From the NCBI RefSeq assembly GCF_014084105.1, contig NZ_CP048289.1, forward strand, positions 2,985,922-3,049,921: a stretch of DNA of 64,000 nucleotides, written 5' to 3'. Position 1 is the stretch's first letter. Each line of letters opens with the position of its first letter. Both the position numbers and the translations under genes were made by a program. Shown piece by piece: positions 32,259 to 50,217 of the stretch. Below the pieces are notes generated by a model, which saw only the letters and a list, made by a program, of their open reading frames with translations, had not been told where the DNA came from and did not search any database. The DNA comes from Streptacidiphilus sp. P02-A3a. GTDB lineage: Bacteria > Actinomycetota > Actinomycetes > Streptomycetales > Streptomycetaceae.

Positions 32259-32657
32259 TCAGGTCGGCAGGGCTGCGATGTGGTTGCTTCCGCGGCGGGC
32301 CCGGTCGGGCTTGAGTGCCTGGTTCTCGTGGTACAGGTTGGCGGTCACGGTGGCGACGGCGTCGAGCTTGTTCTGGAGCGCCGTGACGTCTTGCTTGGCC
32401 TCTCGCAGCTGTCGTCGGAGTCTGGCGATCTCCTCGTCCCGTTGGACCTCGCCGGGAGTCCGCAGCACAGGCTTGGCCACGTGGGCGTCCCACTCGGCGA
32501 GGACGCCCTGGGCCCGGTGGACGGTGGCGTGGCTCACGCCGGCTTCGCGGGCGAGGTTCTCCTTGGTGAGGGCACCGTCGGTGCGTATCGGCGCCCCGGC
32601 GAGGAGCCGGGCCATGGCCTCGCGCAGTTTGGCCTCGGTGACGGCAGATACTGGCAT
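32259..32657 (-). CDS. TnpC-like HTH/coiled-coil accessory protein of the recombinase element (DUF6262 type)
   Basis: 132 residues. The ATG at 32657 overlaps the stop of the upstream recombinase (TGATG). An N-terminal helix-turn-helix (TKENLAREAGVSHATVHRAQ) is followed by a coiled coil (RDEEIARLRRQLREAKQDVT). Size and position match the small third protein of Tn554-type elements, which influences insertion frequency and orientation. An upstream extension of the frame lies inside the recombinase gene and is not used. Confidence 0.78.
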   Translation of the reverse strand: MPVSAVTEAKLREAMARLLAGAPIRTDGALTKENLAREAGVSHATVHRAQGVLAEWDAHVAKPVLRTPGEVQRDEEIARLRRQLREAKQDVTALQNKLDAVATVTANLYHENQALKPDRARRGSNHIAALPT

Positions 32658-35014: not shown

Positions 35015-36948
35015 CGGTCGTACTCCGTTCGCATGCCCAACGGCAGGTCGAGGTCAACGGCTCCGGCGGCGATCTGCTCGCGGGCGGCGGGGATGTGCTC
35101 GGCGCACTCTTCGAACAACTCGGCCAGAGCCTGGGCCTTCTGACCCCAGTGGAGCTGCCACACCGGGGGCGTCAAGCGCTCCCGCATCCGCTCGACATGG
35201 TCGGCGAACAGCAGCAGTCTGGGGAGCTGGGAGGTGAAGATCACCGCGTTGGGGCAGACCATGCACATCGCCGGCGCCACATGGCAGGGCTTGCCGGGTC
35301 CGGTGAACGGCGAGTCTGTCGGCTCACGACAGTTGGTCAGACCCATGTCGAGTTCCCCGTCCATCAAGGCCCGCCCCTGCTGGACGGTAATGCCCAGCGC
35401 GTCGGCGGTCTCCGGATCACTCAGATGCGCCTCCGCGTCAGGGTCCACCAGGATGGGCTTTGTGGTGATCCTGTCGAAGACCTTGCGCTGTGCCGAGTTG
35501 ACCGCGCGAGCGGCCAAGGTGTGGGCGGTCGTGCCGTGTGCGTAGTGGCCGGCGAACACCTGGATGTGGTGGTCGTCGCCCGCCAGATCGGACAGCGTCC
35601 CGCCCAGGGCAGCGACACGGGTGGTCTTGGCGGTTTTGCGTAGCCGCCTGGCGTCGTGCGGTTGGCTGATGTCCATCTCGCCGTGGGCGGCTATCCAGTC
35701 GGTGAAGCGGCGTCCGGAGACGTTGAGGTACCCGAGCTCGGCCTGTGGCACTCCTTTCCCGGTGAGTTCGACGGCTGTGAACAGCCACGGCTTGCAGTCG
35801 AACACTTGGCGGGTCAGCTCGTTGGCTGCCACCAGACGCCGCAGCAGCCCGGGAACGTCCCACTGACCGCCGCCCTCGAAGAACGCCTTCTCCCCCGCTC
35901 CCTCATCTCCTTGGGGATCAGCCTCGGGTTCGGTGAGGTGGAAGTCGGCGCGGACGCGGCTGGCCCGATTCTTGGTCTGGACGATGCGCGCGCCCTGGGC
36001 ACTGAACTCGATCTCCGGAACACGCAGGCCGTGCAGTTCCTCGGAGGTGCAGTCGGTCATCGACAGCAGCAGCAGGACCCTGAAGGGGTGCAGGTCGATC
36101 TCGCTGGGGAACAGCATCCGGCAGACACCCACGGCCAGACCCCGGCGCCCGGCGAAGGGACCCCTCTCCGCGGGCCGCAACTCCCGCAGTTCGGCCGGCC
36201 AATGCTGGGCGTGTTCTGGCAGGTACTCGTACAGGCTCGCAGTGGTGAGGGTTCCATTGCGGGCCGCCCACAGCAGTTGCGGAACGGTCAGCCACCCCTT
36301 CTCTCGCGGATCCCGACCGGCCTCCAGCAGCAGCCGGCCAGCCGCCAGACGCTTCTCCATCGCCCGGATGTCCTCCATCGCGGCCTCGCGCAGGGCCAGC
36401 CGCTCAGAGTTGGAGTACTCGTCAAGCACCTGCGCGGTGCGCTTGCGCAGAACGGTGCGGTCCCGCGCCCGCTCGCGCAGCCGTTCGGGGATCCTTGCAT
36501 CGCGCTGAGCGGCGTGGTCCAAGATGTTGAGCAGCGTATTCGCCAGTCGGTAGGGCTCGTTGGACTGAGGGGCGTACCCGGCGGAGAGCTGCTGTTCCCA
36601 CGCATAGACGACCTCTGCCAGGTCCAAGTCCGCACTGTCCAGCCGCGCATCGGCCGGGTCGTGGCCCAACGAGGCCAGATGCGGACCAGCGAACGTGCAC
36701 AGACTCACCACGGCCGCGCGCTGGTGGACACTGCTCTTGACGGCGTTCTTGTCGGCGTAGTCGAGCCAGGCATCCGCGAGCTGTCCCGCCAAGGCCGGGC
36801 ACTGGTAGTCGGCCGGGTCGATCCGCAGCACCTTCTGGCGCTCGCGCGAGAACTCCGTCCTGGCGCGGATTCCGATTGCCCCTGGCGACGGCGCCGGGGG
36901 CGTGGAGCGCACCACGGGGCGCGGCTGGCGCTGTCCTCGGCGCGGCAT
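35011..36948 (-). CDS. tyrosine recombinase 2 of the trio (645 aa), catalytic residues partly missing
   Basis: The ATG at 36948 overlaps the stop of recombinase 1 (TGATG). The fold is recognisable by FRVLLLLSMTDCTSEELHGL, DARRLRKTAKTTRVAALGG and FAGHYAHGTTAHTLAARAV. The first catalytic Arg position reads Thr (TDCTSEEL), His of the HxxR box is replaced (RRLRKT), and the usual Tyr after the GH box is not evident. A CxxC pair (APAMCMVCPNA) near the C-terminus suggests a zinc site. It may have a structural or targeting role beside active partners. Assignment of the missing residues was done by eye. Confidence 0.78.
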   Translation of the reverse strand: MPRRGQRQPRPVVRSTPPAPSPGAIGIRARTEFSRERQKVLRIDPADYQCPALAGQLADAWLDYADKNAVKSSVHQRAAVVSLCTFAGPHLASLGHDPADARLDSADLDLAEVVYAWEQQLSAGYAPQSNEPYRLANTLLNILDHAAQRDARIPERLRERARDRTVLRKRTAQVLDEYSNSERLALREAAMEDIRAMEKRLAAGRLLLEAGRDPREKGWLTVPQLLWAARNGTLTTASLYEYLPEHAQHWPAELRELRPAERGPFAGRRGLAVGVCRMLFPSEIDLHPFRVLLLLSMTDCTSEELHGLRVPEIEFSAQGARIVQTKNRASRVRADFHLTEPEADPQGDEGAGEKAFFEGGGQWDVPGLLRRLVAANELTRQVFDCKPWLFTAVELTGKGVPQAELGYLNVSGRRFTDWIAAHGEMDISQPHDARRLRKTAKTTRVAALGGTLSDLAGDDHHIQVFAGHYAHGTTAHTLAARAVNSAQRKVFDRITTKPILVDPDAEAHLSDPETADALGITVQQGRALMDGELDMGLTNCREPTDSPFTGPGKPCHVAPAMCMVCPNAVIFTSQLPRLLLFADHVERMRERLTPPVWQLHWGQKAQALAELFEECAEHIPAAREQIAAGAVDLDLPLGMRTEYDR

Positions 36949-38489
36949 CAGGCCACCGCCCTTCCGGCCTCACGGGCCGCATAGTCGGCGAACGTGGTGT
37001 CCTGGTCGTTCCACGCCTTGATCGCCTGGGCGACCAGGAGATTCGTCCTGCGGATGTAACGCAGGTAACGCATTGTCGACTCCGGGCGTCGGTGCCCAAG
37101 GAGTTGCTGCACGCGCAGGAACGCGTTGCGGGCCAGGTGCTCCCCCAAGTGGGCCGGGCTCCCACCCCCGTCGCGTATCTCCTTCGCAGCCTGCTCCAGG
37201 ACAAGCTGGGTGAGCAGTTCGAGCATAAAGATCGCGAAAGTGTGCCTCAGGTCGTGGATCCGGATGGTGCGCGGCATTTCCAGCTTCAGATCGTGAGCCG
37301 CGATCAAGGCAGCGCAGCGGTCCTGAGCGGCACCGAAGACCTGTTCCCAGCGTTGGCGCCCGAGCATCTGGCCGTGCCGACCCACGAACAGGGCCATCGA
37401 CTCCAAGCCGTCATCACCCTCGAACACCGTGATCCGCCGCAGCGGCGCGTCCATCAGCCTGACCTTGAAGGTGCGGCGGCGGCCATGAAGGACGCCGCTC
37501 AGTTTCATCCGGGCAGTGTCGATATCGGTGACGACGAATAGGTCCTCCCTGCGCCGGGACAGTCCCCTGGCAGCCCGCCGCACGGCGCTCGCACGCTCAC
37601 TGCGGCGGTAGAGGTCGATTTCACGCAGCGTGGCGTCCTGGATCTCGACCGTCCGCGGCTGCTTGTACTTAGCAATCGACTCCAGGTCTACCAGCTGAGC
37701 GGAGCCGTCCCGGCGCGGAACGCCGACCTCGATATCCAACAGGCAGCTGAACTCCCGCAGCCGCATACCCGTGCTGATGGCCAACTCGGCCGCGCAACTG
37801 TTCCGCAGCGGGTCCTTCCCCAGAAAAGCGGGATCCACCCCGCCGTCGGGAAGCAGACCGCGCAGGCCGATGTCCTTGAGGCATCGCCACTGGTCGAACG
37901 TCAGGTGCCGGACGTCGAGTTGGGACACCGAGCCCCATGCCAGCACGTCCCGGCCGTTCTTGCGTCGGTGGTAGGGCCGGCGCTCGACCTCCCCCGTCTC
38001 GAGGGCCCAGGTGTAGAAATTGTTGATCGCCACACGCCGCCGCCTCCAGGTAGCCGGGCTGAGCGGCTCTTCCTGGTGCAGGGTGCGATCGTCACGATAG
38101 GCCACCAGATCGTCCTCGCCGGCCGAGAGCAGATCCTCCGCAGGATCCAGACCCATCAGGAAGTCGACCACGTCCAGCAGGTCGTACGTGTAGTCCCGCA
38201 GCGACGAGATCTCCAGGGTCTTCGCCTCCTCGCGGAAGAACGACGACAACGGCTCAGAGGGCCGCATCCCCCCGTCCAGGAAGAACGGCGTGCCCTCCGG
38301 TACAGCGCCGGGTCTGGTGACGTACGCCCAGGCATCAAGATCGACGCCCGGTATCGGCTCGAAGTACCGACGGACCTTGTCCGGCGATGCGAAGAAGTAG
38401 TCCACTGTGCTGCCGTTCCCTTGAGACACCTGGAGCCCGTACACGCTAACGGCCCGCCGGGGAGGCCAGGGACCCCAGCCCCAAGCCAT
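36948..38489 (-). CDS. tyrosine recombinase 1 of the trio (513 aa)
   Basis: I chose the ATG at 38489 because GGTGGA precedes it at six bases. An in-frame ATG at 38513 is closer to the element's end. A SAM-like N-terminal core-binding domain (TYDLLDVVDFLMGLDPAEDL, ATWRRRRVAINNFYTWALE) leads to a full catalytic set: Arg in ISTGMRLREFSCL, His-x-x-Arg in IRIHDLRHTFAIF, and His plus Tyr in LLGHRRPESTMRYLRYI. Its 5' end overlaps, in another frame, the last codons of the disrupted dnaE2. It is the first gene of the coupled recombinase operon. Confidence 0.87.
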   Translation of the reverse strand: MAWGWGPWPPRRAVSVYGLQVSQGNGSTVDYFFASPDKVRRYFEPIPGVDLDAWAYVTRPGAVPEGTPFFLDGGMRPSEPLSSFFREEAKTLEISSLRDYTYDLLDVVDFLMGLDPAEDLLSAGEDDLVAYRDDRTLHQEEPLSPATWRRRRVAINNFYTWALETGEVERRPYHRRKNGRDVLAWGSVSQLDVRHLTFDQWRCLKDIGLRGLLPDGGVDPAFLGKDPLRNSCAAELAISTGMRLREFSCLLDIEVGVPRRDGSAQLVDLESIAKYKQPRTVEIQDATLREIDLYRRSERASAVRRAARGLSRRREDLFVVTDIDTARMKLSGVLHGRRRTFKVRLMDAPLRRITVFEGDDGLESMALFVGRHGQMLGRQRWEQVFGAAQDRCAALIAAHDLKLEMPRTIRIHDLRHTFAIFMLELLTQLVLEQAAKEIRDGGGSPAHLGEHLARNAFLRVQQLLGHRRPESTMRYLRYIRRTNLLVAQAIKAWNDQDTTFADYAAREAGRAVA

Positions 38490-40743
38490 GAGACATCCAC
38501 CCGACATGGGCATAACCGTAGATCTGCATGACCTGCTCGTTGAAGACCACCACGCCCAGGGTCTCCCGCAGGGCCGGGACCAGCTTGTCGTGCGGGTAGC
38601 GGGGACGCTGCCTGCCGTGCCGGGCGGCGATGAAGGGGCTGATCATGTCGGCCGCGACCGGCCCCGGGCGGAACAGGCTGATGTCCACGACCAGGTCGTG
38701 GAAGGTCTCCGGTTGCAGCCGCCCGATCAGCTCGCGCTGGCCCGGTGACTCGATCTGGAAGCAGCCCAGCGTCTGCGAGCTGCGGATCAGTTCGAAGGTG
38801 GCCGGGTCCCCGGGCGGGAGCTGGGCGGGGTCGTCCAGGTCGATCCGGTCGCCGGTGGTGCGGGCGATCTCGGTGACCGCGTACGCCATCGCGGACTGCA
38901 TCCGCACACCCAGGATGTCCAGTTTGAGCAGGCCCAGGTCCTCCACGTCCTCCTTGTCGAAGAAGCTCATCGGCAGGTTCTCGCCCGGGGTGGGCATGAC
39001 CGGGGTGCGGTCCAGCAGGGTGGCGTCGGACAGGATGACCCCGCAGGGGTGCATCGCGATGCCGCGCGGCAGCGCGTCCAGGCCCTCGACCAGCTCCCAC
39101 AGCCGTCCGTAGCGGTCGGCGTCGGCGGCCACCGCGCGCAGTTCGGGGAGTTCGGCCATGGCCGAGCGCACGTCGCGGGCGCGGATGTGCGGGAACGCCT
39201 TCGCCAGTCGCCCGGTCTCGTCCGGGTCGATGCCCAGCGCTGCCCCGGCGTCGCGGATCGCGTGCCGGACCCGGTAGGTCTCCGGCATCGCCACCGCCGC
39301 TGTCCGCTCGGCGCCGAAACGGGTGAACGCGGCCTGGTAGACCTCCAGCCGACGGGCGGACTCCACGTCGATGTCGATGTCCGGCAGCGCCCGGCGGTGG
39401 CGGGAGAGGAAACGTTCCATCAGCAGGCCGTGCTCGATCGGGTTGGCGGTGGCGATCCCCAGCAGGTGCACCACCAGCGACCCGGCCGAGGACCCCCGGG
39501 CGGCGGTCCTGATGCCCAGCCGCCGGGCGTCGTCGACCACCGCCGCCACGGTGAGGAAGTACGTCTCGAAGCCCCGGTCCCGGATGATCTCCAGCTCGTT
39601 CTCCAGCCGCTCCCAGGTGCCGCGGTCCTGCTGGTAGCCGCGCTGGAGCATGGCCGCGACCATGCGCGAGCGCAGCACCCGGTGCGGCGGCCGGTGCTTC
39701 GCGCCCACCTGCTCCGGCTCGGGCAGGTGGGTCTCGCCCAGGCCCAGGTCGGCCCGGGGGTCGAGGCGGCACTCCAGCGCGGTGCGCTCGGTCGCCGCGA
39801 GCAGCCGGGCGGCGCCCCCGCGCTCCTGTCCGGCGGCCGCGGCGATCCGCTCCGCGATCCGCGCCATGGCGGCCTCGGGCTTGAGCCAGCGCTCGCCCCG
39901 GTCGCGGTGCCGCTCGTCGATCGGCACCAGGCGGCGGGCGGCGTCCAGTACGTCGGCGACCGGGGCCTGGGCGCGGTCGGCGTAGCGGACGGCGTTGCCC
40001 AGCACCGCCTCGATCCCCAGCTCCGCCGCGAGGCCGACGGTACGGGCGGCCAGGCGCAGCGAGCCGGGACCGGCGTCGCCCTGGTGGTGGGCGACGGCGG
40101 CCAGCCGCAGCCGGTCCCCGAACAGCTCCCGCCACGGCGCGAGCAGGGCGGTGGCGCGGTCCGGGCGTCCGGCGGCCAGGGCCCGCAGCGGCTCGGAGTC
40201 GGGGCCGAGCAGCACGGTCAGGCCGCCGGACGCGAGCCCGTCCTGTTCGAACGCGGCCTCCAGGGCCGTCCAGGTGAGCAGCGGCCTGCGGGAGCGCGGG
40301 TCGGCGTGGGCGGCGGTGAGCAGGCGGCACAACGCCGCCCAGCCGGTGCGGTCCCGCGCCAGCAGGGTGACCCGGGGCGCGGACTCGTCCACGAACGCCC
40401 CGCCGCGCACCGGCGAGCGGCGCGGGGCGGTGTCACGGTTCCGGTCGGAGTCCTGACCGGGGTGCTGGCTGTGGTGCTGGCGGGGGTTCTGTTCGATGCT
40501 CCGTCCGATGTTCTGTTCGGGGTTGTGTTCGAAGGCGGCGACGGCCAGGTCCGCGCCGAAGACCGGCCGCACCCCGTCCCGCAGGCAGGCCTTCGCGAAC
40601 CGCACCACGCCCGACACGGTGTCGCGGTCGGTCAGCGCCAGCGCCTCCATCCCGGACTCGGCCGCCCGGCGTACCAGGGCGTCCGGGTGGGAGGCGCCGA
40701 AGCGCATGGAGTAGCCGGAGGCGACCTGCAGATGCGTAAACAC
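38446..40743 (-). pseudogene. dnaE2: error-prone DNA polymerase III alpha subunit, 3'-truncated (copy 2)
   Basis: GTG start at 40743 with GAGAGG upstream. The remaining 765 residues include the PHP domain (THLQVASGYSMRFGASHPDA) and the catalytic palm (PDIDIDVESARRLEVY; LLKLDILGVRMQSAMAYAV). Homology stops at NEQVMQI in the fingers domain. The last ~25 residues, YGYAHVGWMSHGLGLGSL onward, come from the recombinase element. The rest of the fingers, the HhH module and the OB fold are missing, so no working polymerase is expected. It is clearly related to copy 1 but diverged, and has its own LexA box. The 3' part does not occur elsewhere in this window. Confidence 0.88.
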
Positions 40744-40817
40744 ACCAGCACCTCTCTCCTCCCTTCCGATCGGATGCCCGACATATCCCTTTAAGTCCCT
40801 CCAGCCTACGTCATTGT

Positions 40818-40833
40818 TCGAACATATATTCGA
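40818..40833 (-). promoter_or_regulatory. LexA (SOS) box upstream of the truncated dnaE2
   Basis: TCGAACATATATTCGA matches TCGAAC-N4-GTTCGA at 11 of 12 positions. It lies 75 bp upstream of the GTG start, and upstream of the divergent small gene at 40919. Confidence 0.82.
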
Positions 40834-40918
40834 TGGTGAGGGTAGTAGTGAACCATCCGCGCGGGCGGTGGTCCACGCCCGGGAGGCGGGGCGGGGCTCC
40901 AGGTCGCAGGCTGGAGAC

Positions 40919-41134
40919 ATGGACAGCACCGCACCCGTGGTGGTCGGCCCGCTGGTGGCCGACGAGCGGCCCTACCGCCGGGTGATGATCCTCGGCCGCG
41001 AGGTCGGCCGCGCCTACGAACCGGCGGACGTCGACGAGTTCTGCCGCCGTGCCGGGCTGGTCGACGCCGACCTGGACGACCCGGCGACGGTCTCCTGGAC
41101 CGGCGGCGGCCCGGAGGAGTGGAGCCTCAGCTGA
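40919..41134 (+). CDS. small hypothetical protein, 71 aa
   Basis: ATG with TGGAG upstream. The protein contains VVVGPLVADERPYRRVMILG and AYEPADVDEFCRRAGL and ends in an acidic WTGGGPEEWSLS tail. It is divergent from the truncated dnaE2 across the LexA box, so damage control is possible. Family not recognised. Confidence 0.6.
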   Translation: MDSTAPVVVGPLVADERPYRRVMILGREVGRAYEPADVDEFCRRAGLVDADLDDPATVSWTGGGPEEWSLS

Positions 41135-41146
41135 GCCCCCGGACCG

Positions 41147-41206
41147 GCCGCTGAATCCGCTGCCGAACCGGCTGCTGAATCCGCTGCCGAATCCGCTGCC
41201 GAACCC
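41147..41206. repeat. five tandem 12-bp units
   Basis: Units close to GCTGCCGAATCC (variants GCCGCTGAATCC, GCTGCCGAACCG, GCTGCTGAATCC, GCTGCCGAACCC) follow the small gene and precede TetR. The tract is non-coding and its length is a multiple of three. Confidence 0.8.
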
Positions 41207-41259
41207 GCGCTGATCTGCGGCCCTTGCCCTTCCGGTCGGGCGCCCGGGAGAATTTACTC

Positions 41260-41868
41260 ATGGGAGTAACCGAGGAGCGCGGGGAGCGGCTGTCCTTCAC
41301 CGCCGCCGCGCGGCGCGCGCAGATCATCGACGCCGCGATCGAGACCATCGCCGAGCACGGCTTCGGCGCGGCCACCTTCGCCCGGATCGCCGAGCACGCG
41401 AAGCTGTCCAGCACCCGGCTGATCTCCTACCACTTCAAGGACAAGCAGGAGTTGATCGACGAGGTGGTCGGCGCGATCCTGGCCGAGCTCGGCGGCTTCG
41501 TCGGCGAGCGGATGGCCGGGGAGGCCACCGCCCGGGGCGCGCTGCGGGCGTACCTGCGGGCCAGCGCCGAGTTCACCGGCACCCGCCGCAGCCGGATGAA
41601 GGCGCTGCTGGCGGTGTTCACCAGCGGCGCGCTGCCGTTCGACCCGACCGACCAGGAGCCGGTGCTGTCGCCGATCGAGAAGCTGCTGCGGGAGGGGCAG
41701 GCGGCCGGGGAGTTCCGCGACTTCGACCCGCTGGTGATGGCCTCGGTGGTGCAGCGCAGCGTGGAGGGCCTGCCGATGCTCCTGGAGACCCGCCCCGGCC
41801 TGGACGTCGACGCCTACGCGGACGAGATCTGGACGCTGTTCGACCTCGCGACACGCCGGACGCCCTGA
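41260..41868 (+). CDS. TetR family transcriptional regulator
   Basis: 202 residues from an ATG with GGGAG about ten bases upstream. The N-terminal HTH reads RRAQIIDAAIETIAEHGFGA, ATFARIAEHAKLSSTRLISY, HFKDKQELIDEVV, which is typical of TetR. The C-terminal ligand domain is helical. The target is not evident; the adjacent genes are small and of unknown role. A perfect hairpin follows at 41881. Confidence 0.9.
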   Translation: MGVTEERGERLSFTAAARRAQIIDAAIETIAEHGFGAATFARIAEHAKLSSTRLISYHFKDKQELIDEVVGAILAELGGFVGERMAGEATARGALRAYLRASAEFTGTRRSRMKALLAVFTSGALPFDPTDQEPVLSPIEKLLREGQAAGEFRDFDPLVMASVVQRSVEGLPMLLETRPGLDVDAYADEIWTLFDLATRRTP

Positions 41869-41880
41869 CATCGCCGCGCG

Positions 41881-41902
41881 TGTGCGGCCCGGTGGCCGCA
41901 CA
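41881..41902. terminator. hairpin after the TetR gene
   Basis: A perfect 9-bp stem TGTGCGGCC / GGCCGCACA with a CGGT loop lies 12 bp after the TetR stop. Confidence 0.7.
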
Positions 41903-41935
41903 CTTGGTAGGTCCCACCGGAGCGGGGGTGAACCG

Positions 41936-42340
41936 ATGGCCGCACCCGAGCGCGGCACCTGGACGGTGTACCGGGCGACCGTCCTGATGGCGCTCGGCCT
42001 GGCCGCGTGCGCCCTGCTGACCTCGGCCGCCGAGTACGCGGGCGCCCGCCGCGCCGCCGTCCCGCCCGTCGCGTCCACCCTGGCGGTGACCGGCGCCTGC
42101 GCCGCCCACAGCCACCACTCCGCCCGCCACCTCGGCCCGAGGACCCTGCGGATGGTGGACTGCCGCGACCACGCCGCCCGCTTCGAGGTCCTGCGGGTCC
42201 TCCTGGGCAGCGACCCGGCCCGCTGCGACGGCGTCCCCGGCGCCGAACTGGCCTTCCCCCAGCCCGCCACCCGACACCACCCCGCCTCAACCCTCTGCGT
42301 CACCCTCCTCGACGTCCAAGCCCGAGGCCCCCTGGAGTGA
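41936..42340 (+). CDS. small membrane-anchored protein with LppU-like Cys pattern, 134 aa
   Basis: ATG preceded by GCGGGGGTG. One N-terminal hydrophobic segment (ATVLMALGLAACALLTSAAE) acts as signal or anchor. The outside part has the spacing GAC..., MVDCRDHAARFEVL, ARCDGVPG and STLCVTLLD, which resembles the LppU/SCO3897 group of small extracytoplasmic proteins. Four Cys could make two disulfides. Role unknown. Confidence 0.6.
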   Translation: MAAPERGTWTVYRATVLMALGLAACALLTSAAEYAGARRAAVPPVASTLAVTGACAAHSHHSARHLGPRTLRMVDCRDHAARFEVLRVLLGSDPARCDGVPGAELAFPQPATRHHPASTLCVTLLDVQARGPLE

Positions 42341-42485
42341 CCTTGCCGGGCTCTGCGGGGGCCGGCGCTGGGTCTGTCGGCGGAATGACCCCCGATCACG
42401 CGGCCTTGCAAAAGGTCTGGCTCACGTCACCGGCGTACGGTTGCCTGCTGTAGCGGTTTGGATACGGGCGGCAGAGGCGGAGGCC

Positions 42486-43793
42486 GTGGCGGGGGACGAG
42501 GGCATCACGTTCGGCGAGTTCATCGCCAAGTTGCGGGGGCGCAAGGGCTGGTACCAGCGCGATCTGGCCGCAGAGGTCGACCGCAGCGAGGAGTGGGTCT
42601 CCGGGGTCGAGCGGGACGTGATCCCGGTTCGGAAGATCGAGATGTTGAGCCTGCTCACGAAGGTCCTCGGGACGACGCTCGACGAGTTACTCGCGCACGC
42701 ACAGCCCGCCGCTGTGTCCGCTTCGCCTCGACGGAAGGTCAGCTCCGCTAGGCTGACGGGCAATCACGCCGTCGAGGAGGATGACGAGGAAGTGCGTCGC
42801 CGCGAACTCCTGGCCGCCGCGGCCGCCACTGTCTTCGCCCCGCGGTCCGTCGGTGCTCAGTCCGCGCAGGCGGGTACGACGCCGCTGGCCCCGTTGGAAG
42901 ACCTCGTCCTGTACGGCACTGCCCGCCTCCCGACTCAGCGGGAGCCGAGCATCGAGGCCGTCCGTGCCTCGATCGCAGCGGCCCGACGGGACTTCCGTGC
43001 TGCCCGGTACGATGCCCTCGCCCAGGCCCTGCCCGGCTGGATCGTGGCAGCCCAGAGCGTCGGCAGCACCGAGCAGGCGGCGAACTCGGCAGCGGAGCTC
43101 TACGACATCGCGGCCCGGCTCTGCATCAAGGTCGGTGACAACGGCCTGGTCGCCATCACCTCCGACCGCGCGCTGACCGCCGCCCGCACGGGCGGCGACG
43201 CGCTGGTCATCGCCGAGGCCCAGCGGATGGTCTCCAGCGCCTGGCGGCGTCAAGGCCATCTGGGCCGCGCCACCGATATCTCGGTCCGTGCCGCCCACGA
43301 GCTCCAGCACGACGACAGCGCTCCGGAGCCCTCCCGCCTGGCCGCCCAGGGAGACCTGTACGCGACGGCTGCCTATACGGCCGCGAAGTTGGGTGACCGC
43401 GCCTACGCCCACGCACTGATCCGCGAGGCCGCTGGCACCGCCCACGCATCGGGGGAGACCGACAGCGTCCAGGGGGTCGACCTGCACCTGCTGTCGGTGC
43501 ACTACGAGCTGGGCGATGCCGGGCAGGCGATCGACCTGGCTCGCAGCATCGACCCGGCTTCCCTGCCGACCGCCGAGCGTCAGGCCCGCTTCTTCATCGA
43601 CGTGGCCCGCGCGTTCGAGCAGTGGGGCAAGCCCGAGCCGTGCTTCCGCGCGCTGTTGGCCGCCGAGCAGGCCGCCCCGCAGGAGATCCGACGCTCAGCC
43701 GCCCGCCAGATCGCTACCGGGCTCCTGCGCCACGACCGGACCCTGCCGGGTATCCGAGACTTCGCCACCCGCTCCGGCGTCCGGCTCGCCTGA
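42486..43793 (+). CDS. XRE-family HTH regulator with TPR-like helical repeats
   Basis: 435 residues from a GTG. A TTG at 42441 is in frame. An N-terminal XRE helix-turn-helix (GEFIAKLRGRKGWYQRDLAA, then EVDRSEEWVSGVERDVIPV) precedes an Arg-rich linker and an Ala-rich helix (RRRELLAAAAATVFAP). The remaining ~300 residues are TPR-like helical pairs (for example AYTAAKLGDRAYAHALIREA, HYELGDAGQAIDLARSID). This architecture is common in streptomycete regulators that sit beside small biosynthetic sets. It lies just upstream of, and on the same strand as, the MurA/MurB group, so it probably controls it. No ligand domain is seen. Confidence 0.85.
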   Translation: MAGDEGITFGEFIAKLRGRKGWYQRDLAAEVDRSEEWVSGVERDVIPVRKIEMLSLLTKVLGTTLDELLAHAQPAAVSASPRRKVSSARLTGNHAVEEDDEEVRRRELLAAAAATVFAPRSVGAQSAQAGTTPLAPLEDLVLYGTARLPTQREPSIEAVRASIAAARRDFRAARYDALAQALPGWIVAAQSVGSTEQAANSAAELYDIAARLCIKVGDNGLVAITSDRALTAARTGGDALVIAEAQRMVSSAWRRQGHLGRATDISVRAAHELQHDDSAPEPSRLAAQGDLYATAAYTAAKLGDRAYAHALIREAAGTAHASGETDSVQGVDLHLLSVHYELGDAGQAIDLARSIDPASLPTAERQARFFIDVARAFEQWGKPEPCFRALLAAEQAAPQEIRRSAARQIATGLLRHDRTLPGIRDFATRSGVRLA

Positions 43794-44018
43794 CCCGTAA
43801 CGCGCTTGCGGGCCCGTAACCGGCATACGGATCTGATCTTCGCTACAGCCTTTCACTTGGGACAGAGCCCCCGCTCCTGCTGCCGGAGGCCCTTCCAGGC
43901 CGACGCACAGCACCTCCTGCCTGCGTGCCTTTCGCCCGCCCGCCCGGCGTCACGCCGTACCGGCCTCGCACACAGTCCCGGCACCACCTCTTCTTCGCCG
44001 CTCGAAGGGAGAACCGCC

Positions 44019-44759
44019 ATGCACCATCTGACCGAAGTGCCGACCCTCAGCACCGGGTTGGCGCGTATCGACCACCGCACCGCGCCCGAGTACTTCTTCG
44101 ACATCGAGCAGGTCCACGACCCGCTTCTGCTGTGCTTGCTGAGCCGCTGCCCGACCGTCTTCGGCATCAAGAAGGCCATGTCCGACCTGCTGTTCGGCCG
44201 CCTCGACACCACCCTGCCCGCGACCGAGGGACTCATCGAGCCGGGCGCGAGCGTCCGCGGCGACGTCATCGTCGCTGCCGGAGCCGTCATCGCCGAGGGC
44301 GCCCACGTCACCGGCCCCGTCCTGGTCTGCCCCGGCGCACGTATCGAGGCTGGTGCCCGGGTTCGGGACACCTGCGTCATCGGCCCGGGCTGCCGGATCG
44401 GTTTCGGCGCCGAGGTCACCCGGAGCCTGCTGCTGGGCGACGTCTTCATGAAGCACACCTCCTTCGTCGGGGACTCCGTCCTGGGACTGGGCGTCAACAT
44501 CGGCGCGTTCGTGTCCACCACCGGGCTGCGGGTCACTTCCGGACCCGTCACCGAACCCGCCACCGACGAGGTCAGTGCCCACCTCGACGGCCACCGGATC
44601 GGTACCGGCCAGACCAAGTTCGGCGCCGTGATCGGGGACGGCGTGATCATCCCGGCCGGCACTGTCCTGCAGCCCGCCACGCTCATCGGCGCGCACACGG
44701 TGCTCTACCCGAAGACCCAGATCGGGGGCTTCTTCCCGGCCGGAAGCCAGGGAAGGTGA
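44019..44759 (+). CDS. left-handed beta-helix (hexapeptide) transferase, GlmU C-domain/sugar-nucleotide type
   Basis: 246 residues from an ATG with AAGGGAG eight bases upstream. After ~70 residues (EYFFDIEQVHDPLLLCLLSR) comes a hexapeptide beta-helix: GLIEPGASVRGDVIVAAGAV, IAEGAHVTGPVLVCPGARIE, LGLGVNIGAFVSTTGL, and late GAVIGDGVIIPAGTVLQPAT. The FMKHTSFVGDSVLG loop and GVNIGA element resemble the acetyltransferase half of GlmU and related sugar-1-phosphate enzymes. The nucleotidyltransferase domain is missing. It is two bases from the MurA-like gene, so likely the first step of a nucleotide amino-sugar route. The acyl donor and acceptor are unknown. Confidence 0.8.
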   Translation: MHHLTEVPTLSTGLARIDHRTAPEYFFDIEQVHDPLLLCLLSRCPTVFGIKKAMSDLLFGRLDTTLPATEGLIEPGASVRGDVIVAAGAVIAEGAHVTGPVLVCPGARIEAGARVRDTCVIGPGCRIGFGAEVTRSLLLGDVFMKHTSFVGDSVLGLGVNIGAFVSTTGLRVTSGPVTEPATDEVSAHLDGHRIGTGQTKFGAVIGDGVIIPAGTVLQPATLIGAHTVLYPKTQIGGFFPAGSQGR

Positions 44760-44761
44760 CC

Positions 44762-46075
44762 ATGAGCGACACCACCACGCCGCACACCGACAACCGTGCC
44801 GTGCGCATCACCGGCGGCACAGCGCTGATCGGCACCGTACAGGTGCAGGGCAGCAAGAACATCGCCCTGCACCTGTACGCCGCAGCCCAGCTCGCCGACG
44901 AGCCGCTGACCCTCACCGGGGCGCCGGAGATCGTGGACACCGGGGTCTGCGCGGAGATCCTGAACCGCACCGGTACCCCGGCCAAGGTCACCGGCGACCT
45001 GTTCGAGACCGCCCCCGGCGACATCCGCCGCCCGGTCATCCCTGACACCCTGGGCCGCCGTATCCGCACCACCGCGGTCATGGCCGCCGCCCTGCTGACC
45101 CGCGCCGGGGAGGTGACCTTCCCGACCCCGGGCGGGGACGCCTTCTGCCACCGCCTCATCGACCGGCACCTGGCCGCGATGGAAGCCGCCGGAGCGGACG
45201 TCGAGATCACCCCGGGTCGGATCCGTGCCCATCTGTCCAGCGGGAACCGGCGGCCGTTCAGCACCGATGCCGCCACCGCGAAGTGGGGACCGAGCCTGGG
45301 GGCAACGGTGACCGGGATGCTGCTGGCCGCCCGCCTCAGGGGCACCTCCAGCATCCTGAACCCCAGCGTCGAGCCCGAGGTGAGGGTCACCGCCGAGCTG
45401 CTGGCGGCCGGCGGGGTCGGCATCGAGTGGGAGGGCACCGCCGCGCTGTGGGTCACCGGCACCGACCGCGTCACCGGCGGCACCTTCCCGGTGCCGCCGG
45501 ACCGCCTGGAGGCAGCCACTCTGGGCCTGGCCGGCGCGATCACCGGTGGCCTCGTCCACCTCGGCCGCTTCCCACTGGGAAGTTTTCCGGACGGCTTGCT
45601 CGCGGTCTTCGCCGACGCCGGGATCGAAGTCACCTCCGTGGGAGGTGGGACCACCATCCGCTGCCCGGCTGGCCCGAGGCCGGTCCAGGTGGCGACCGGC
45701 CCGCACCCGGGATTCCCGACCGACGTCCAGCCGCAGCTCACGGCCTTCCTCACCCAGGCTTCCGGGACTTCACGGGTCGAGGAGCGGATCTACACCGAGC
45801 GCGGGACCCACCTCGGTCCGCTGCGGGCCTTCGGCGCCGTCGTCAACGCCGACGGTCCGGTCATCACCGTCCGGGGCCCGTCCCCGCTCGCCGCCACCGA
45901 CGTGGCAGGCGAGGACATCCGGGCCGTCACCGCCCTCCTGATCGCCGCCTTGGCGGCCGAGGGCACCTCTACGATCCGAGGGATGTACCACCTGAGGCGC
46001 GGATACAGCAGCCTGCTGCGCAAACTCGCCTCGCTCGGTGCCGAACTGACGATCAGTGACCTGGAGACGCCGTGA
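44762..46075 (+). CDS. murA: MurA-like enolpyruvyl transferase with Asp at the Cys115 position
   Basis: 437 residues from an ATG with GGAAGG. MurA landmarks: VQVQGSKNIALHLYAAAQLA (Lys22/Asn23 equivalents), EVTFPTPGGDAFCHRLIDRH (active-site loop), GFPTDVQPQLTAFLTQASG (Asp305 equivalent) and MYHLRRGYSSLLRKLASLGA. In E. coli MurA the loop reads PGGC; here it is PGGD. That change makes MurA insensitive to fosfomycin, as in Mycobacterium. The rest of the loop (AFCHRLIDRH) also departs from the usual AIGxRPxDLH, so the acceptor may not be UDP-GlcNAc. The housekeeping murA is probably elsewhere; this one is linked to MurB and a hydrolase. The symbol is used in the family sense. Confidence 0.85.
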   Translation: MSDTTTPHTDNRAVRITGGTALIGTVQVQGSKNIALHLYAAAQLADEPLTLTGAPEIVDTGVCAEILNRTGTPAKVTGDLFETAPGDIRRPVIPDTLGRRIRTTAVMAAALLTRAGEVTFPTPGGDAFCHRLIDRHLAAMEAAGADVEITPGRIRAHLSSGNRRPFSTDAATAKWGPSLGATVTGMLLAARLRGTSSILNPSVEPEVRVTAELLAAGGVGIEWEGTAALWVTGTDRVTGGTFPVPPDRLEAATLGLAGAITGGLVHLGRFPLGSFPDGLLAVFADAGIEVTSVGGGTTIRCPAGPRPVQVATGPHPGFPTDVQPQLTAFLTQASGTSRVEERIYTERGTHLGPLRAFGAVVNADGPVITVRGPSPLAATDVAGEDIRAVTALLIAALAAEGTSTIRGMYHLRRGYSSLLRKLASLGAELTISDLETP

Positions 46076-47109
46076 TCACCACCCTGCCGTGGACCCAGCC
46101 CGCACTCACCGAACTGCAGGACTGCCTCGACCTGATGACCGCCGACAGCACGGTGCCCGGCGGTGTCGTCGCCCACGGCACCTACGACAGCGCCCCCGGC
46201 TTCCTGACGTCCGGTGTCGTCGCCCCCGAATGCGGCGAGGCCCGTCCCGGCCCCGGCACCGTCTACGACGTCGCCTCACTGACCAAAGTGCTGGCCACCT
46301 GGCCGCTGATCGGCAGCCTGCAGTCGCTCGACCTGGACGCCCCCGTCCGGGAACTCCTGCACCGCCTTCCGGACGACGCCCCGGGCGGGCAGGTGACAGT
46401 ACGGCAGATCCTTGCCCACACGTCCGGGCTGCGCGCCGACACCCGCCTCGACCAGTACCGTGGCACGGGCACCGACCTGGCGGAACTCATCTGCCGAGAG
46501 GGCCTGATCGCCACACCCGGCGCCGGGCACCGCTACATCAACCGCGGCTTCATCCTCGCCGGGCTCCTCCTCGCCCAGGTCACCGGCCGGCGCCTGGACG
46601 AGCTCGCCGCCGACCTGTGGCACGGCCTGGGCATGCCCGCCACGCAGTACGGCCCGGTAGCCCGCGCTGTCCACGTCGCACCCACCGAACAGCGCTTCCC
46701 CGGTGCCCCAAGGCTGTGGGGTCTGCCGCACGACGACAACGCCGCTCTGCTGGGAGGCGTTGCCGGACACGCCGGGGTCTTCTCCACACCGGCCGACCTC
46801 GCCACTTACGCGTCCGCCCTCCTGCGCGGGCACCGCGAAGGCTCGCCGCTCGGCCGTTGGCTGACCCAGAGCATGGTGTCCCACGCCGTGATCGAGCCCG
46901 GCCTGGAACGGGGGCTGGCTTGGATCCTCGCCGACGAGGCCCACGTCGCCTACCACCACGGTTTCACCGGAACCAGCCTCTACCTCCACCCCGGCACCGG
47001 CCGCTACCTGGCCATCTGCACCAACGCCGTCTACCACCACCAGGACAACCGGACTCGGCTCGCCCCACTGCGGGCCCTCGCACTCAAAGCGATCACCGAC
47101 GAACCCTAG
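46072..47109 (+). CDS. serine hydrolase of the beta-lactamase class C / DD-peptidase fold
   Basis: 345 residues. The GTG start overlaps the MurA-like stop (GTGA), so the two are coupled. No signal peptide is seen, so a cytosolic enzyme is likely, unlike cell-wall DD-peptidases. The catalytic SxxK is SLTK in TVYDVASLTKVLATWPLI. The Tyr-x-Asn equivalent is YIN in HRYINRGFILAGLLLAQ. HTSG (ILAHTSGLRADTRL) follows the usual spacing, and the late motif reads HHGFTGTSLYLHPGTG. Members include esterases and amidases. In this operon it could cleave an acyl or lactyl ester from an amino-sugar intermediate (inference). Confidence 0.88.
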   Translation: MITTLPWTQPALTELQDCLDLMTADSTVPGGVVAHGTYDSAPGFLTSGVVAPECGEARPGPGTVYDVASLTKVLATWPLIGSLQSLDLDAPVRELLHRLPDDAPGGQVTVRQILAHTSGLRADTRLDQYRGTGTDLAELICREGLIATPGAGHRYINRGFILAGLLLAQVTGRRLDELAADLWHGLGMPATQYGPVARAVHVAPTEQRFPGAPRLWGLPHDDNAALLGGVAGHAGVFSTPADLATYASALLRGHREGSPLGRWLTQSMVSHAVIEPGLERGLAWILADEAHVAYHHGFTGTSLYLHPGTGRYLAICTNAVYHHQDNRTRLAPLRALALKAITDEP

Positions 47110-47121
47110 GGAGGACCTGCC

Positions 47122-48174
47122 GTGGCCCACTGCACGCTCGCGTCCCTGACCACGCTCCGGCTCGGAGGCCCCGCCGGGCACATCATCACCGTCTCCGACC
47201 CCGCCGACTGGACCGACGCCATCCGGACCATCGACCTCAGGGGCGAGGAGGCACCCGTGGTGCTGGGCCACGGAAGCAATGTCATCGCCTCCGACGCAGG
47301 ACACCTCGGCACCGTCGTCGTGATGAACACCCGGGGCATCACCGCGACCCGGGTCGACCGGAGCACCGTCGAGGTCACCGTGCAGGCCGGCCATCCTCTC
47401 AGTGACCTGGTCCGGTGGGCAGCCGCCGAGGACCTGGCCGGAATGGAGTGCCTGGCCGGGATACCCGGCACGGTCGGCGCCGCCCCGGTCCAGAACGCCG
47501 GAGCATACGGTCAGCAGATCTCCGACGCCCTCGACCGCCTCACCGTCTGGGACTGGAAGACGGGCCGCCTGCGGACCCTGCCCGCCGAGGCATGCCGCCT
47601 GCGGCATCGCGGCAGCCGCTTCAAGGGCAGCCCTGGGTACTGGACCATCCTCAACGTCACCTTCCACCTCATCCGAGCCAAACGCGCCGCCCCGGTCACC
47701 TACCGGCCTTTGGCGGACGAACTCGGTGTCCCGATCGGCACTCGGCCACCGGTACCCGAGGTGGCGGGTGCGGTCCTGGCCAACCGGTACCGCCGCGGCC
47801 TCCTCCTGGACCGCAACGGCCCGGATGCCCGACAGGTCGGCTCCGTGTTCCTCAACCCACCCGTAACCGCCGATCAGGCCGCCCGCTGGTCGGCCGCCGG
47901 ATGCCCCGTCCACCACGACAGCGACGGACAACTGCGGGCCAGTGCGGGCTGGCTGCTGGAACACGTCGGCTGCCATCCGGGCGAGGAGGTCACCGACGGC
48001 GTCCGGTGCTCGAACCAGCGGGCCCTGACCCTCACCGCCCACAGTCGGGTCACGGCCACTGGCTTCACCCGGGCGCTCACCCTGCTCTCCGACCGTGTGA
48101 AGACCGCGACCGGGGTGAACCTTCGCCCCGAGCCCGTCGCCATCGGTATCTGGCCGGACACAACAGACGGCTGA
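47122..48174 (+). CDS. murB: MurB-like UDP-N-acetylenolpyruvoylglucosamine reductase
   Basis: 350 residues from a GTG with GGGAGGA upstream. The FAD domain is clear: TTLRLGGPAGHIITVSDP, VVLGHGSNVIASDAGHLG, AGIPGTVGAAPVQNAGAYGQ. The catalytic region has LRHRGSRFKGS (Arg159 equivalent) and GSVFLNP (Ser229 equivalent; the following Lys of KNP is Leu). It reduces an enolpyruvyl ether to a lactyl ether with NADPH, completing the step begun by MurA. It is the last gene of the four-gene set. Whether it duplicates the housekeeping murB cannot be told from this window. A specialised substrate is possible. Confidence 0.87.
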   Translation: MAHCTLASLTTLRLGGPAGHIITVSDPADWTDAIRTIDLRGEEAPVVLGHGSNVIASDAGHLGTVVVMNTRGITATRVDRSTVEVTVQAGHPLSDLVRWAAAEDLAGMECLAGIPGTVGAAPVQNAGAYGQQISDALDRLTVWDWKTGRLRTLPAEACRLRHRGSRFKGSPGYWTILNVTFHLIRAKRAAPVTYRPLADELGVPIGTRPPVPEVAGAVLANRYRRGLLLDRNGPDARQVGSVFLNPPVTADQAARWSAAGCPVHHDSDGQLRASAGWLLEHVGCHPGEEVTDGVRCSNQRALTLTAHSRVTATGFTRALTLLSDRVKTATGVNLRPEPVAIGIWPDTTDG

Positions 48175-48394
48175 TCATCGCGGTTGCCCCATCGGCTCAG
48201 GCCCGGACTGCCCCTGCCTGGGCGCGGCCATTGTCGACATCGAGACCGGTACCGGCTCCTGTCACCTCGCCGCCACTGGCGTACGAGCCGAACGGTAGCC
48301 GGGTGGCTGAACCGCCGCGGAGTCTCGGCATGGCACTGACTCTCATCCGCCAGCGAGTTCCCCGGGCCGTCCGTCGTGTTGTCGGCGGGGTGAG

Positions 48395-49354
48395 TCAGCG
48401 GAGGCGCTGGGCCAGTTGGACCCAGAGGGGGAGGAGGACGAGGGTGGTCACCGAGGTTTTGACCACCAGTGAGGCGGACATTTCCAGGCTTTCCGCGTCG
48501 ACGTCGTAGCGCTGCGCGAAAATGAAAAGGTTCTGTGGCGCGGGCATTGCCGCGATCAGGACCAGGTAGTCGAGCCAGATTCCGCTGACGCCGAAAATCA
48601 GGAAGCACACGGCCCAGGTGAGCAGCGGGAACAGGACGCATTTGAAGGCGATCAGCCAGATTTCCTCGAACGGGGTTCCGCGCACCCGCAGGCCGCTGCC
48701 GCCGAGGTGCAGGCCGAGGGCGAAGAGGGCGACCGGGGAGGCGCTGACGCCGACGAAGGAGAAGCCCTCCAGGAGCGTCGCGGGGACGCGTACCGACAGC
48801 AGGTTCAGCGCGAGCCCGGCCACGCAGGAGAGGACCAGGGGGGTGGTCAGTGAGGACCACAGCGCTCGCCGGACCCGGATGGCCGCTCTGGCGGTCGGGT
48901 CCGCCACGCCCAGTTCCATGATCAGGATGACCACCGAGGACAGCACGCACACCTGGAACAGCAGCACCGAGAAGATCGGCGTCGCGGTCCCGAAGAGCAT
49001 GATGAACACCGGCACCGCGAAGTAGGCGGTGTTCACCTGTATCCCGGCCATGATGCGCAGCGCTATGCCCTGCGGCCGACGGGTGCCGAACAGGTACGCG
49101 GCCAGCCCGACCAGGGCCGTGCTCGCAGCCGCGCTGACGATGTAGCCGGACAGCGCCCGCCAGACGAACAGCGTGCGCAGGTCGCTGCCGTAGACGTTGC
49201 CGAACAGGTAGCAGGGGATGCCGAAGAGGAAGGTGAAGTCCGAGAACGCCTTGGACGTCTCGGGGGCGATCACCTTGCGCCGGGCGAAGACGACCCCGGC
49301 CCCGAAGGCCAGTCCCACTGGAAAGAGTTTGGGGAGTGTGCTCAGCGCGTCCAC
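48395..49354 (-). CDS. AEC (auxin efflux carrier) family transporter
   Basis: 319 residues from a GTG at 49354. About ten helices are visible, beginning VGLAFGAGVVFARRKVIAPE. Family landmarks include FLFGIPCYLFGNVYGSDLRT, IMAGIQVNTAYFAVPVFIML and LIAAMPAPQNLFIFAQRYDV with the conserved PAPQN turn. Such carriers move organic acids, malonate or similar compounds across the membrane. It converges on murB across a 220-bp gap, so a link to the Mur-like pathway is only positional. Confidence 0.88.
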   Translation of the reverse strand: MDALSTLPKLFPVGLAFGAGVVFARRKVIAPETSKAFSDFTFLFGIPCYLFGNVYGSDLRTLFVWRALSGYIVSAAASTALVGLAAYLFGTRRPQGIALRIMAGIQVNTAYFAVPVFIMLFGTATPIFSVLLFQVCVLSSVVILIMELGVADPTARAAIRVRRALWSSLTTPLVLSCVAGLALNLLSVRVPATLLEGFSFVGVSASPVALFALGLHLGGSGLRVRGTPFEEIWLIAFKCVLFPLLTWAVCFLIFGVSGIWLDYLVLIAAMPAPQNLFIFAQRYDVDAESLEMSASLVVKTSVTTLVLLPLWVQLAQRLR

Positions 49355-49719
49355 GACTCAGACGACGCCGAGGCGCGGTTGCCGGAATTTCAGAACGTCC
49401 GCTCGCCCGCGCATGAAACGCCTTTTCGTTGCCCCTGGAAAAGGGAATTGACAGGACGTCGGCGCAATACGATCCTGCGTCAGGTCCTCATTGACCGACG
49501 AAGCGAGACGCTAACAGGGGCTTTGTTCGAGTGTCAACGCCGCCTGCATGTACCCGGTGGTGAATCGACGGATTCAGTCGGAGTGTGAGTGCGTCCGCCA
49601 TCGGCGGTCGTTCATCGCCTAGTACTCCTGTAGTTCGTGATGTGTCATGGTCTCGGGGGCTGCCTGCCGCTGATGGAAGCTCAGGTGGCCTCGGCGCGCC
49701 GTCTGAGTAGAGTCGCGCC
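49355..49719. other. gene-free stretch between divergent transporter and acetyltransferase genes
   Basis: It is less GC-rich than its flanks and should hold the AEC and GNAT promoters. No RNA gene, IS end or small gene was recognised. One TTGACA-like box near 49449 has a poor match at its -10 position. Confidence 0.4.
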
Positions 49720-50217
49720 GTGCCCGAGTTGGAGCAGTTGGATGCTGGCCATGCCCCGGCGGTCCTGGCTTTCGAGCTGGCGAACCGTGCCTACTTCGCT
49801 GCCTCGGTTTCCGACCGGGGCGACGAGTTCTACGACCAGTTCGCCGACCGGCACAGCGCCATGCTTGCCGAGCAAGAGGCTGGCAGCTGCGCCTTCTACG
49901 TGCTGGTCGCCGAGGATGGATCGGTTCTGGGCCGGTTCAACCTGTACGACGTCGAGGACGGAACTGCCAACCTCGGCTACCGGGTCGCGCAGCACGTTGC
50001 CGACTGCGGTGTAGCGACCTCGACTGTCCGGGAGTTGTGTCGGCTGGCGGCGGCGCGGCACGGGCTGCACACACTGAGGGCAGCCACATCCCACGCCAAT
50101 GCCGCGTCCCGGAAGGTGCTGACCAAGACCGGGTTCGTCCCCGTCGGCCCGGCAGACCCGGCCGACCTCGGCGGTAAGCCAGGCACCTGGTATCAGCGCG
50201 ACCTGGCACTCCGTTGA
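49720..50217 (+). CDS. GNAT family N-acetyltransferase (RimJ/RimL-like)
   Basis: 165 residues from a GTG with a weak GAGTAGAG upstream. The GNAT core is seen in FYVLVAEDGSVLGRFNLYDV, NLGYRVAQHVADCGVATSTV (acetyl-CoA loop region) and a late helix-strand pair, HANAASRKVLTKTGFVPVGP. The RKVLTKTGF segment is typical of ribosomal-protein or antibiotic N-acetyltransferases. Substrate unknown. Confidence 0.87.
   Translation: MPELEQLDAGHAPAVLAFELANRAYFAASVSDRGDEFYDQFADRHSAMLAEQEAGSCAFYVLVAEDGSVLGRFNLYDVEDGTANLGYRVAQHVADCGVATSTVRELCRLAAARHGLHTLRAATSHANAASRKVLTKTGFVPVGPADPADLGGKPGTWYQRDLALR

Follow-up and report, generated by a model that had tools for sequence, protein, structure and literature searches.

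Why should an actinomycete keep a second pair of MurA- and MurB-type genes, apart from its other copies and packed together with a transferase, a hydrolase and a regulator? Muramic acid chemistry is usually regarded as private to peptidoglycan. The locus that raises this question lies in a stretch of 64,000 nucleotides, here called the window, of the 9.33 Mb single-contig genome of Streptacidiphilus sp. P02-A3a (family Streptomycetaceae). An initial annotation had described a regulator and four packed genes at 42486-48174, and we found all of these genes and their joints again, with the catalytic residues intact. The explanation we favour, with moderate confidence, is an accessory, horizontally moving mini-operon that would make a muramic-acid-type amino-sugar compound of its own under a dedicated switch. 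This reading draws on gene order, co-inheritance, intact catalytic residues, an operator pattern and signs of transfer, all of which are observed in the sequences.

The set opens with REG (42486-43793, on the forward strand like the four genes that follow), which encodes a regulator of 435 residues; an alternative upstream TTG at 42441 also lies in the open frame. The protein had been labelled an XRE/TPR regulator. The XRE part of this label held, with HTH_31 above its cut-off, and the TPR part did not, as Pfam finds no TPR in the window protein at E ≤ 10. Among four proteins scanned, a trace was seen in that of locus L013 only (TPR_5, E 0.013, weak and below cut-off), and the “TPR-like” match to NsdA also fell below its cut-off (25.3 vs 75). 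HEX (44019-44759, with an ATG at 44019) encodes a transferase of 246 residues with left-handed beta-helix (LbetaH) repeats, recognised by Pfam/NCBIfam, by a PDB profile and by AlphaFold2 with Foldseek. After 2 bp comes MURA (44762-46075), a MurA-type enolpyruvyltransferase of 437 residues with an EPSP_synthase domain and Asp126 at the position of Cys115. A GTGA overlap joins it to HYD (46072-47109), an S12-type serine hydrolase of 345 residues (Beta-lactamase) in which SLTK, YxN and HHG are present, and 12 bp separate HYD from MURB (47122-48174), a MurB-type flavin reductase of 350 residues with FAD_binding_4 and MurB_C domains and the catalytic Ser, Arg and Glu residues.

This is not the usual cell-wall locus of the genus. 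HEX occurs in 3 of 14 genomes of the genus and, at E ≤ 1e-40, in 24 of the 394 genomes sampled across the family, the genome studied here counted in both; it reaches 6 of 17 genera of the family, and a phylum-wide sample of 396 genomes gave our genome as the sole match. The search for this gene order across actinomycetes that the initial annotation had proposed returned a conserved accessory operon: HEX, MURA and HYD follow one another on one strand in all 23 other HEX-bearing family genomes, with the contig of L087 ending inside HYD, and MURB comes next in 20 of the 22 cassettes not cut by a contig end, being missing in L096 and L103. A separate profile scan of genome contigs with the MURA alignment gave 41 loci, from genomes that partly overlap the 23; HEX lies upstream in 33 of these loci and HYD downstream in 34. 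The selected records include Streptosporangium, Microtetraspora and Marinitenerispora, and relatives are also found in other families and on plasmids. Twenty plasmid records hold relatives, 18 from actinomycetes (nine at 55-68% identity and nine at 45-46%) and two from proteobacteria (about 36%). HEX-MURA-HYD is a constant core and MURB is frequent, a composition that would be strange in a mere reserve of peptidoglycan enzymes and that suits a separate pathway.

The four genes also diverge together. Their pairwise distances correlate with r of 0.90-0.94, a value as high being reached in none of 999 Mantel permutations (24-42 loci, with at least one genome, L035/L102, entered twice); for the close clade taken by itself the correlation is 0.61-0.92, and for the other loci 0.72-0.85. 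The window copy is nearer to the Kitasatospora copy L013 (MURA 79% and HEX 83% identical) than to the same-genus copies L011 and L012 (MURA 57% for both, HEX 58% and 56%), which indicates horizontal transfer. Outside the cassette no neighbouring gene cluster recurs in more than five of 44 sequences, the flanking open reading frames (ORFs) having been called by a simple rule that missed some cassette genes too.

The genome does hold further murA and murB genes, as the initial annotation had asked. There are seven places of the EPSP-synthase family, MURA and six others, and two MurB_C places, MURB and one other. L002, L005 and L007 align with MURA over the full length and are the three other MurA-like copies, while L001, L003 and L004, whose alignment to MURA is limited to one short piece (E 0.024, 4e-4 and 0.001), are probably AroA-like. 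The idea of a separate MurA/MurB pair is borne out: it looks complete, lies apart from the other copies and is accompanied by a transferase, a hydrolase and a regulator. L002 sits a few genes downstream of an apparent atp operon, whose genes were recognised by eye; mycobacterial murA has a like position, and on this ground we take L002 to be the standard murA. The MurA-like enzyme at L007/L058 (G000:C1:458643-459890) carries Cys at the Cys115 position, has an HTH-like stretch ahead of it in frame and adjoins genes that by eye resemble those of nonribosomal peptide assembly.

The initial annotation had further proposed that MURA is insensitive to fosfomycin. Among the best 120 of 318 relatives, which were aligned with E. 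coli MurA, all 120 have Asp at position 115. According to one report, E. coli MurA with Asp115 is active and fosfomycin-insensitive, and Asp occurs naturally at this position in several bacteria (PMC4790336). Insensitivity of MURA is predicted by the alignment, but it would not be special in this genome: L002 carries PGGD, with Asp at the Cys115 position as in the window MURA, and L005, like L007, carries Cys. Since L002, the murA beside the atp genes, shares this Asp, self-protection against fosfomycin would be redundant, and it was set aside as the main idea.

The active sites of both enzymes appear complete. MURA covers the whole PF00275 profile (positions 2-417 of 417, 159.1 bits) and exceeds the cut-off of the subfamily model NF006873 (317.8 vs 297). 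The window protein retains Lys22, Arg120, Asp305 and Arg397 together with Asp at 115. Among the 120 listed relatives, K22 and N23 are kept in 118 (with two gaps), R91, R120, H125 and R371 in all, D305 in 119 (G in P0052), R397 in 119 (L in one), and D123, H125, R120 and S162 in 119-120; W95 is replaced by V in all 120 and L124 by R in 115. In MURB, S229, R159 and E325 are kept in 16 of 16 sequences, with K217 changed to R in 15, Y254 to H in 14 and Q288 to R in all 16; the housekeeping MurB of the same genome has H at the Q288 position. MURB exceeds the equivalog cut-off of NF010478 (279.2 vs 231). The pair resembles E. coli MurA and MurB (b3189, b3972) in folds, in catalytic residues and in the likely two-step chemistry. 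It differs in the separate clade of MURA and its score below the murA equivalog TIGR01072, in being tied to HEX and HYD and in being accessory.

A FastTree phylogeny of 29 sequences groups all 25 cassette-type MURAs in a single clade (support 0.86), to which none of the three other MurA-like copies of the genome belongs; the close clade as a whole has a support of only 0.15. Six MURA genes (L020, L022, L024, L026, L027, L028) stand alone or behind an epimerase-type gene, without HEX or HYD in the sequence examined. These six group together with support 0.999 inside the close clade, next to the MURAs of the window and of L013, and for this reason the partners of MURA seem to change. At L020, L022, L024 and L027 the gene directly upstream, in place of HEX, is of the nucleoside diphosphate (NDP)-sugar epimerase type (by Pfam for three, by sequence clustering for L027), and L020, L024, L026 and L027 have in common a Nudix-type ORF (by Pfam for two).

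HEX is most like the C-terminal domain of ST0452 from Sulfolobus tokodaii (2ggo, 5z09). A PDB profile matched the C-terminal half of that protein with E 6.5e-31, and it was also the top Foldseek match for the AlphaFold2 model (predicted local distance difference test, pLDDT, 84.4 for the best model and 66-72 for the other four). Both share the left-handed beta-helix and an aligned His; HEX, in the alignment of 29 of the 33 HEX loci that we used, differs in an 8-residue insertion after the VNFGA region. The predicted model has the beta-helix fold but no nucleotidyltransferase half, and no fusion of HEX to a nucleotidyltransferase was found by length or Pfam content among 120 listed of 406 relatives, in a search that admits proteins up to 1.75 times the query length. 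Scores stay below the GlmU/ST0452-type cut-offs, the best being TIGR03992 (112.6 vs 292.1, profile positions 228-391 only), and HEX was rejected as a plain GlmU or mannose-1-phosphate enzyme on that count. In HYD the SLTK, Y-x-N and HHG motifs are invariant across 30 aligned rows, and the best AlphaFold2 model has a pLDDT of 91.6 (78-85 for the other four). Its Foldseek matches are S12 folds, and HYD shares fold and motifs with FmtA-like proteins, EstG, R61, ClbP and SurE, although identity is only 14-22% in the 50 Foldseek rows listed, with no nearer functional match. By eye, no signal peptide or membrane part was noticed in HYD.

The switch came to light in an alignment of the stretch after REG from 17 loci of the close clade, the broken cassette L098 being left out. 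REG itself is 62-79% identical in eight aligned relatives. Immediately after its stop codon, the 17 loci carry two 17-bp palindromes of the form CCGTA-N7-TACGG whose starts are 18-19 bp apart. Both have at most one arm change in 16 of 17 loci; L085 has one copy and an altered second. Of 33 copies of the palindrome, 23 have a complementary position 6 (A..T or G..C) and 10, including the second window copy, do not. In the window, the probable first copy lies at 43795-43811 (CCGTA-N7-TGCGG, with a change at one arm position), immediately behind REG like its counterparts in the relatives, and the second in tandem with it at 43814-43830 (CCGTA-N7-TACGG, perfect arms). The tandem has one mismatch of 20, none of 500 shuffles was as good, and it is unique in its own genome when up to three mismatches and spacings of 18 or 19 are allowed. 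It is probably the operator of REG. Downstream, on the forward strand at 43852-43861, lies a TTCACT block (TTCACTTGGG in the window) that is a possible promoter element of the operon; TTCACT occurs in 17 of 17 aligned loci. A wider REG regulon in the same genome was rejected: only four single sites match perfectly, whereas the reversed pattern has 12, and there is no second tandem. Nor does every cassette have the operator: a palindrome lies within 3.5 kb of MURA at up to one mismatch in 10 of 41 loci, as a tandem in nine that have REG in the same direction (L013, L014, L015, L017, L018, L021, L025, L029 and L045), while L037 has a single, imperfect palindrome. The broken L098, which has the same REG, shows three scattered copies and no tidy tandem.

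On this basis we propose that the operon is controlled by REG through binding to the pair of palindromes behind the REG gene. HEX, judged by its fold, would N-acylate an amino sugar or its activated form. MURA, with a complete active site, would transfer enolpyruvate from phosphoenolpyruvate to a nucleotide sugar at its 3-OH, the acceptor most likely being UDP-N-acetylglucosamine or a close relative, and MURB may reduce the product to the lactyl ether. In cassettes without MURB the housekeeping MurB could act, or the enol ether could be the end product. HYD might hydrolyse or transfer an acyl or peptide group on the product, a role suggested by its fold and the weakest of these steps. If the proposal is right, a mobile operon would open the way to new lactyl-ether sugars in bacterial families that are known as antibiotic producers, and the operator, as it has no second such tandem in this genome, would be a handle for turning the pathway on.

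Several results weigh against this proposal. MURA falls below the cut-off of the murA equivalog TIGR01072 (304.3 vs 392.7), as it does for NF009470 (245 vs 552), and MURB below TIGR00179 (119.7 vs 144.5) and NF000755 (183.1 vs 277). Among the ST0452 acetyltransferase residues, His alone aligns in HEX, so that HEX may not acetylate a sugar-1-phosphate. MURB (E ≤ 1e-8) is present in 18 of the 33 MURA-selected HEX cassettes, in two of which (L016 and L042) the contig stops short of the MURB place; every locus with MURB has HEX. Broken or shortened members, judged from tblastn pieces at 23 loci, are frequent (MURB in L086, L092, L097 and L101; MURA and HYD in L098; HEX and MURA in L107), which makes the cassette dispensable. 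The shared part of the cassette holds no transporter or glycosyltransferase among the ORF clusters of 44 sequences.

Could the pair instead be an inducible spare, in which MURA and MURB make ordinary UDP-N-acetylmuramic acid once something, such as an actinomycete antibiotic acting on this step, blocks the housekeeping enzymes? The complete active sites and the score of MURB against NF010478 would suit this, as would the activity and fosfomycin insensitivity of the Asp115 E. coli enzyme, and feglymycin is said to hit this step (PMC8698665). We nevertheless consider it unlikely. Asp is present already in the murA beside the atp genes, no other neighbouring gene cluster recurs in more than five of 44 sequences, and HEX and HYD are constant partners that a plain MurA/MurB spare would not need, while MURB is often missing. 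That the genes are an ordinary duplicated pair with no distinct function, kept by chance, is very improbable: the frequency of broken copies agrees with it, but the order is fixed at 50-80% identity, the operator is private, and the median ratio of nonsynonymous to synonymous polymorphism (pN/pS) is 0.33-0.43 for HEX, MURA and HYD in six loci.

A different substrate is a further alternative, and one we hold to be distinctly unlikely. MURA would act on another nucleotide or nucleoside, as NikO of nikkomycin biosynthesis (PDB 4fqd) does, and the set would make a nucleoside-type product. NikO is not known to have a MurB-type partner. The changes of MURA L124 and of MURB K217, Y254 and Q288 fall on uridine/diphosphate sites, and an epimerase-type gene replaces HEX upstream of MURA in the four loci named above. 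NikO offers the precedent of a MurA-type enzyme in specialised chemistry, and its report describes alkylation by fosfomycin at Cys130, where MURA has Asp (PMC6801904). MURA is, however, far nearer to true MurA than to NikO (E 2.8e-60 vs 2.6e-24), the residues D123, H125, R120 and S162 are kept, and the housekeeping MurA of the same genome varies at 121 and 124 too.

The favoured mini-operon under its own switch gains context from REG genes that stand elsewhere. REG orthologues (E ≤ 1e-100) occupy 32 places in 30 of 394 family genomes, and 17 of these places are not part of a HEX cassette; 14 of the 17 were examined, two places of G037 and one of G273 being left out. In six of the 14 the match to the REG queries is at least 72% identical. 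Four of these (L172, L173, L174 and L175) retain the operator as a tandem, mismatched at 0-2 of 20 positions and with none of 500 shuffles as good, and the other two, L181 and L182, are without it (355 and 28 of 500 shuffles as good; the L181 match misses the first 91 residues). What follows differs: radical-SAM, dTMP-kinase-like and STM4013-type hydrolase genes in L172 (4721-8001), radical-SAM and sulfatase-type genes in L175 (4988-7986, the middle genes lying outside the scan), and in L174 (3122-6485) genes of the thymidylate-synthase and exonuclease types with, between them in the list, an ORF whose NDK-like match stays below cut-off. L173 has no clear payload, and in L183 MURA comes directly after REG. 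The regulator module looks exchangeable from these comparisons, and the presence of REG with its operator ahead of other enzyme sets agrees with a payload that forms a separate pathway; payload exchange behind one regulator could be used to search for further small pathways. Four places with REG at 61-63% identity (L176, L178, L179 and L180) show a weaker CCGCA-type tandem, picked out by eye post hoc (6-31 of 500 shuffles as good), which suggests that regulator and operator change together; in L177, L183, L190 and L191 no tandem was seen.

Between operator and HEX, close relatives often have a small ORF of the membrane-peptide kind, of 66-68 codons, with a basic part, then a hydrophobic part and an (A/T)PDLP-like end. 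Among the 17 loci it is intact in nine, runs without a stop into HEX in L015, L018, L085 and L107, is frame-disturbed in L092, cut short in L090, and not found in L025 and the window. In the window, comparison with relatives points to a decayed remnant on the forward strand at 43897-44010 (approximate borders), about 130 bp shorter and with no start codon; no match was found elsewhere in the genome. As a firmly coding gene the ORF was not accepted, the evidence being moderate only: its pN/pS is 0.66 (six loci) or 0.70 (nine loci) against 0.33-0.46 for HEX, MURA, HYD and REG, and the two other frames carry stops in only four of six sequences each. It is also no partner of HEX only, since it follows REG without HEX in L172 and, cut short, in L173; L172 keeps it, L173 and L175 have a shortened form and L174 none. 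A profile of the small ORF matches 39 of 394 family genomes. L184-L189 show a wider family of small membrane ORFs (RHAAPDRDRLG...W..L...LG....APD), standing beside a HAD gene in L184 and L189, with a methyltransferase as well in L184, and forming the tail of a longer ORF in L185 and L188. The cases beside HAD genes make the peptide family wider than the REG module.

The nearest known plan for a regulator with such a peptide is RRNPP quorum sensing of Bacillota. One study defines its pairs by an HTH receptor of 250-500 residues and an adjacent ORF of 10-100 residues (PMC10075063). Relatives alone have this arrangement, at the nine of 17 aligned loci with an intact ORF: an HTH protein of about 435 residues and then 66-68 residues with basic, hydrophobic and conserved C-terminal parts. 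They differ in the weak TPR match of REG and the actinomycete host, the ORF of the window is decayed, and no RRNPP receptor appears among PDB matches of REG up to E 1. A bolder version of the story would have REG, tandem operator and small ORF as an actinomycete peptide-signalling module, analogous to RRNPP systems, that moves between unrelated mini-pathways, with HEX-MURA-HYD-MURB as an exchangeable payload making a lactyl-ether sugar in a cell-density-dependent way, and with the signal peptide lost from the window copy. We regard this as speculative and improbable, and peptide signalling stays a hypothesis because neither the TPR match nor the coding signal is strong and the peptide is missing from the window.

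Phage defence was rejected as a function, as HEX, MURA, HYD and MURB have no PADLOC match at E ≤ 0.001; residues 8-101 of REG match capH in PADLOC with E 6e-06. Within 40000-50000 no known RNA element matched in Rfam at gathering scores. The gene set is named in none of the literature found, judged from titles and abstract openings among the matches listed, which is no proof of absence. To the left of the locus, on the reverse strand at 32657-38513 and 38446-40929, lie three large genes with overlaps of 1-4 bp, the rightmost a tyrosine recombinase and the middle one without a Pfam match. The block abuts a shortened DNA polymerase III alpha-type gene, of which a 1151-residue gene at 28394-31849 is by eye an intact relative. 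Perhaps this is a three-recombinase element, of the kind named RIT, in a second copy of the polymerase gene.

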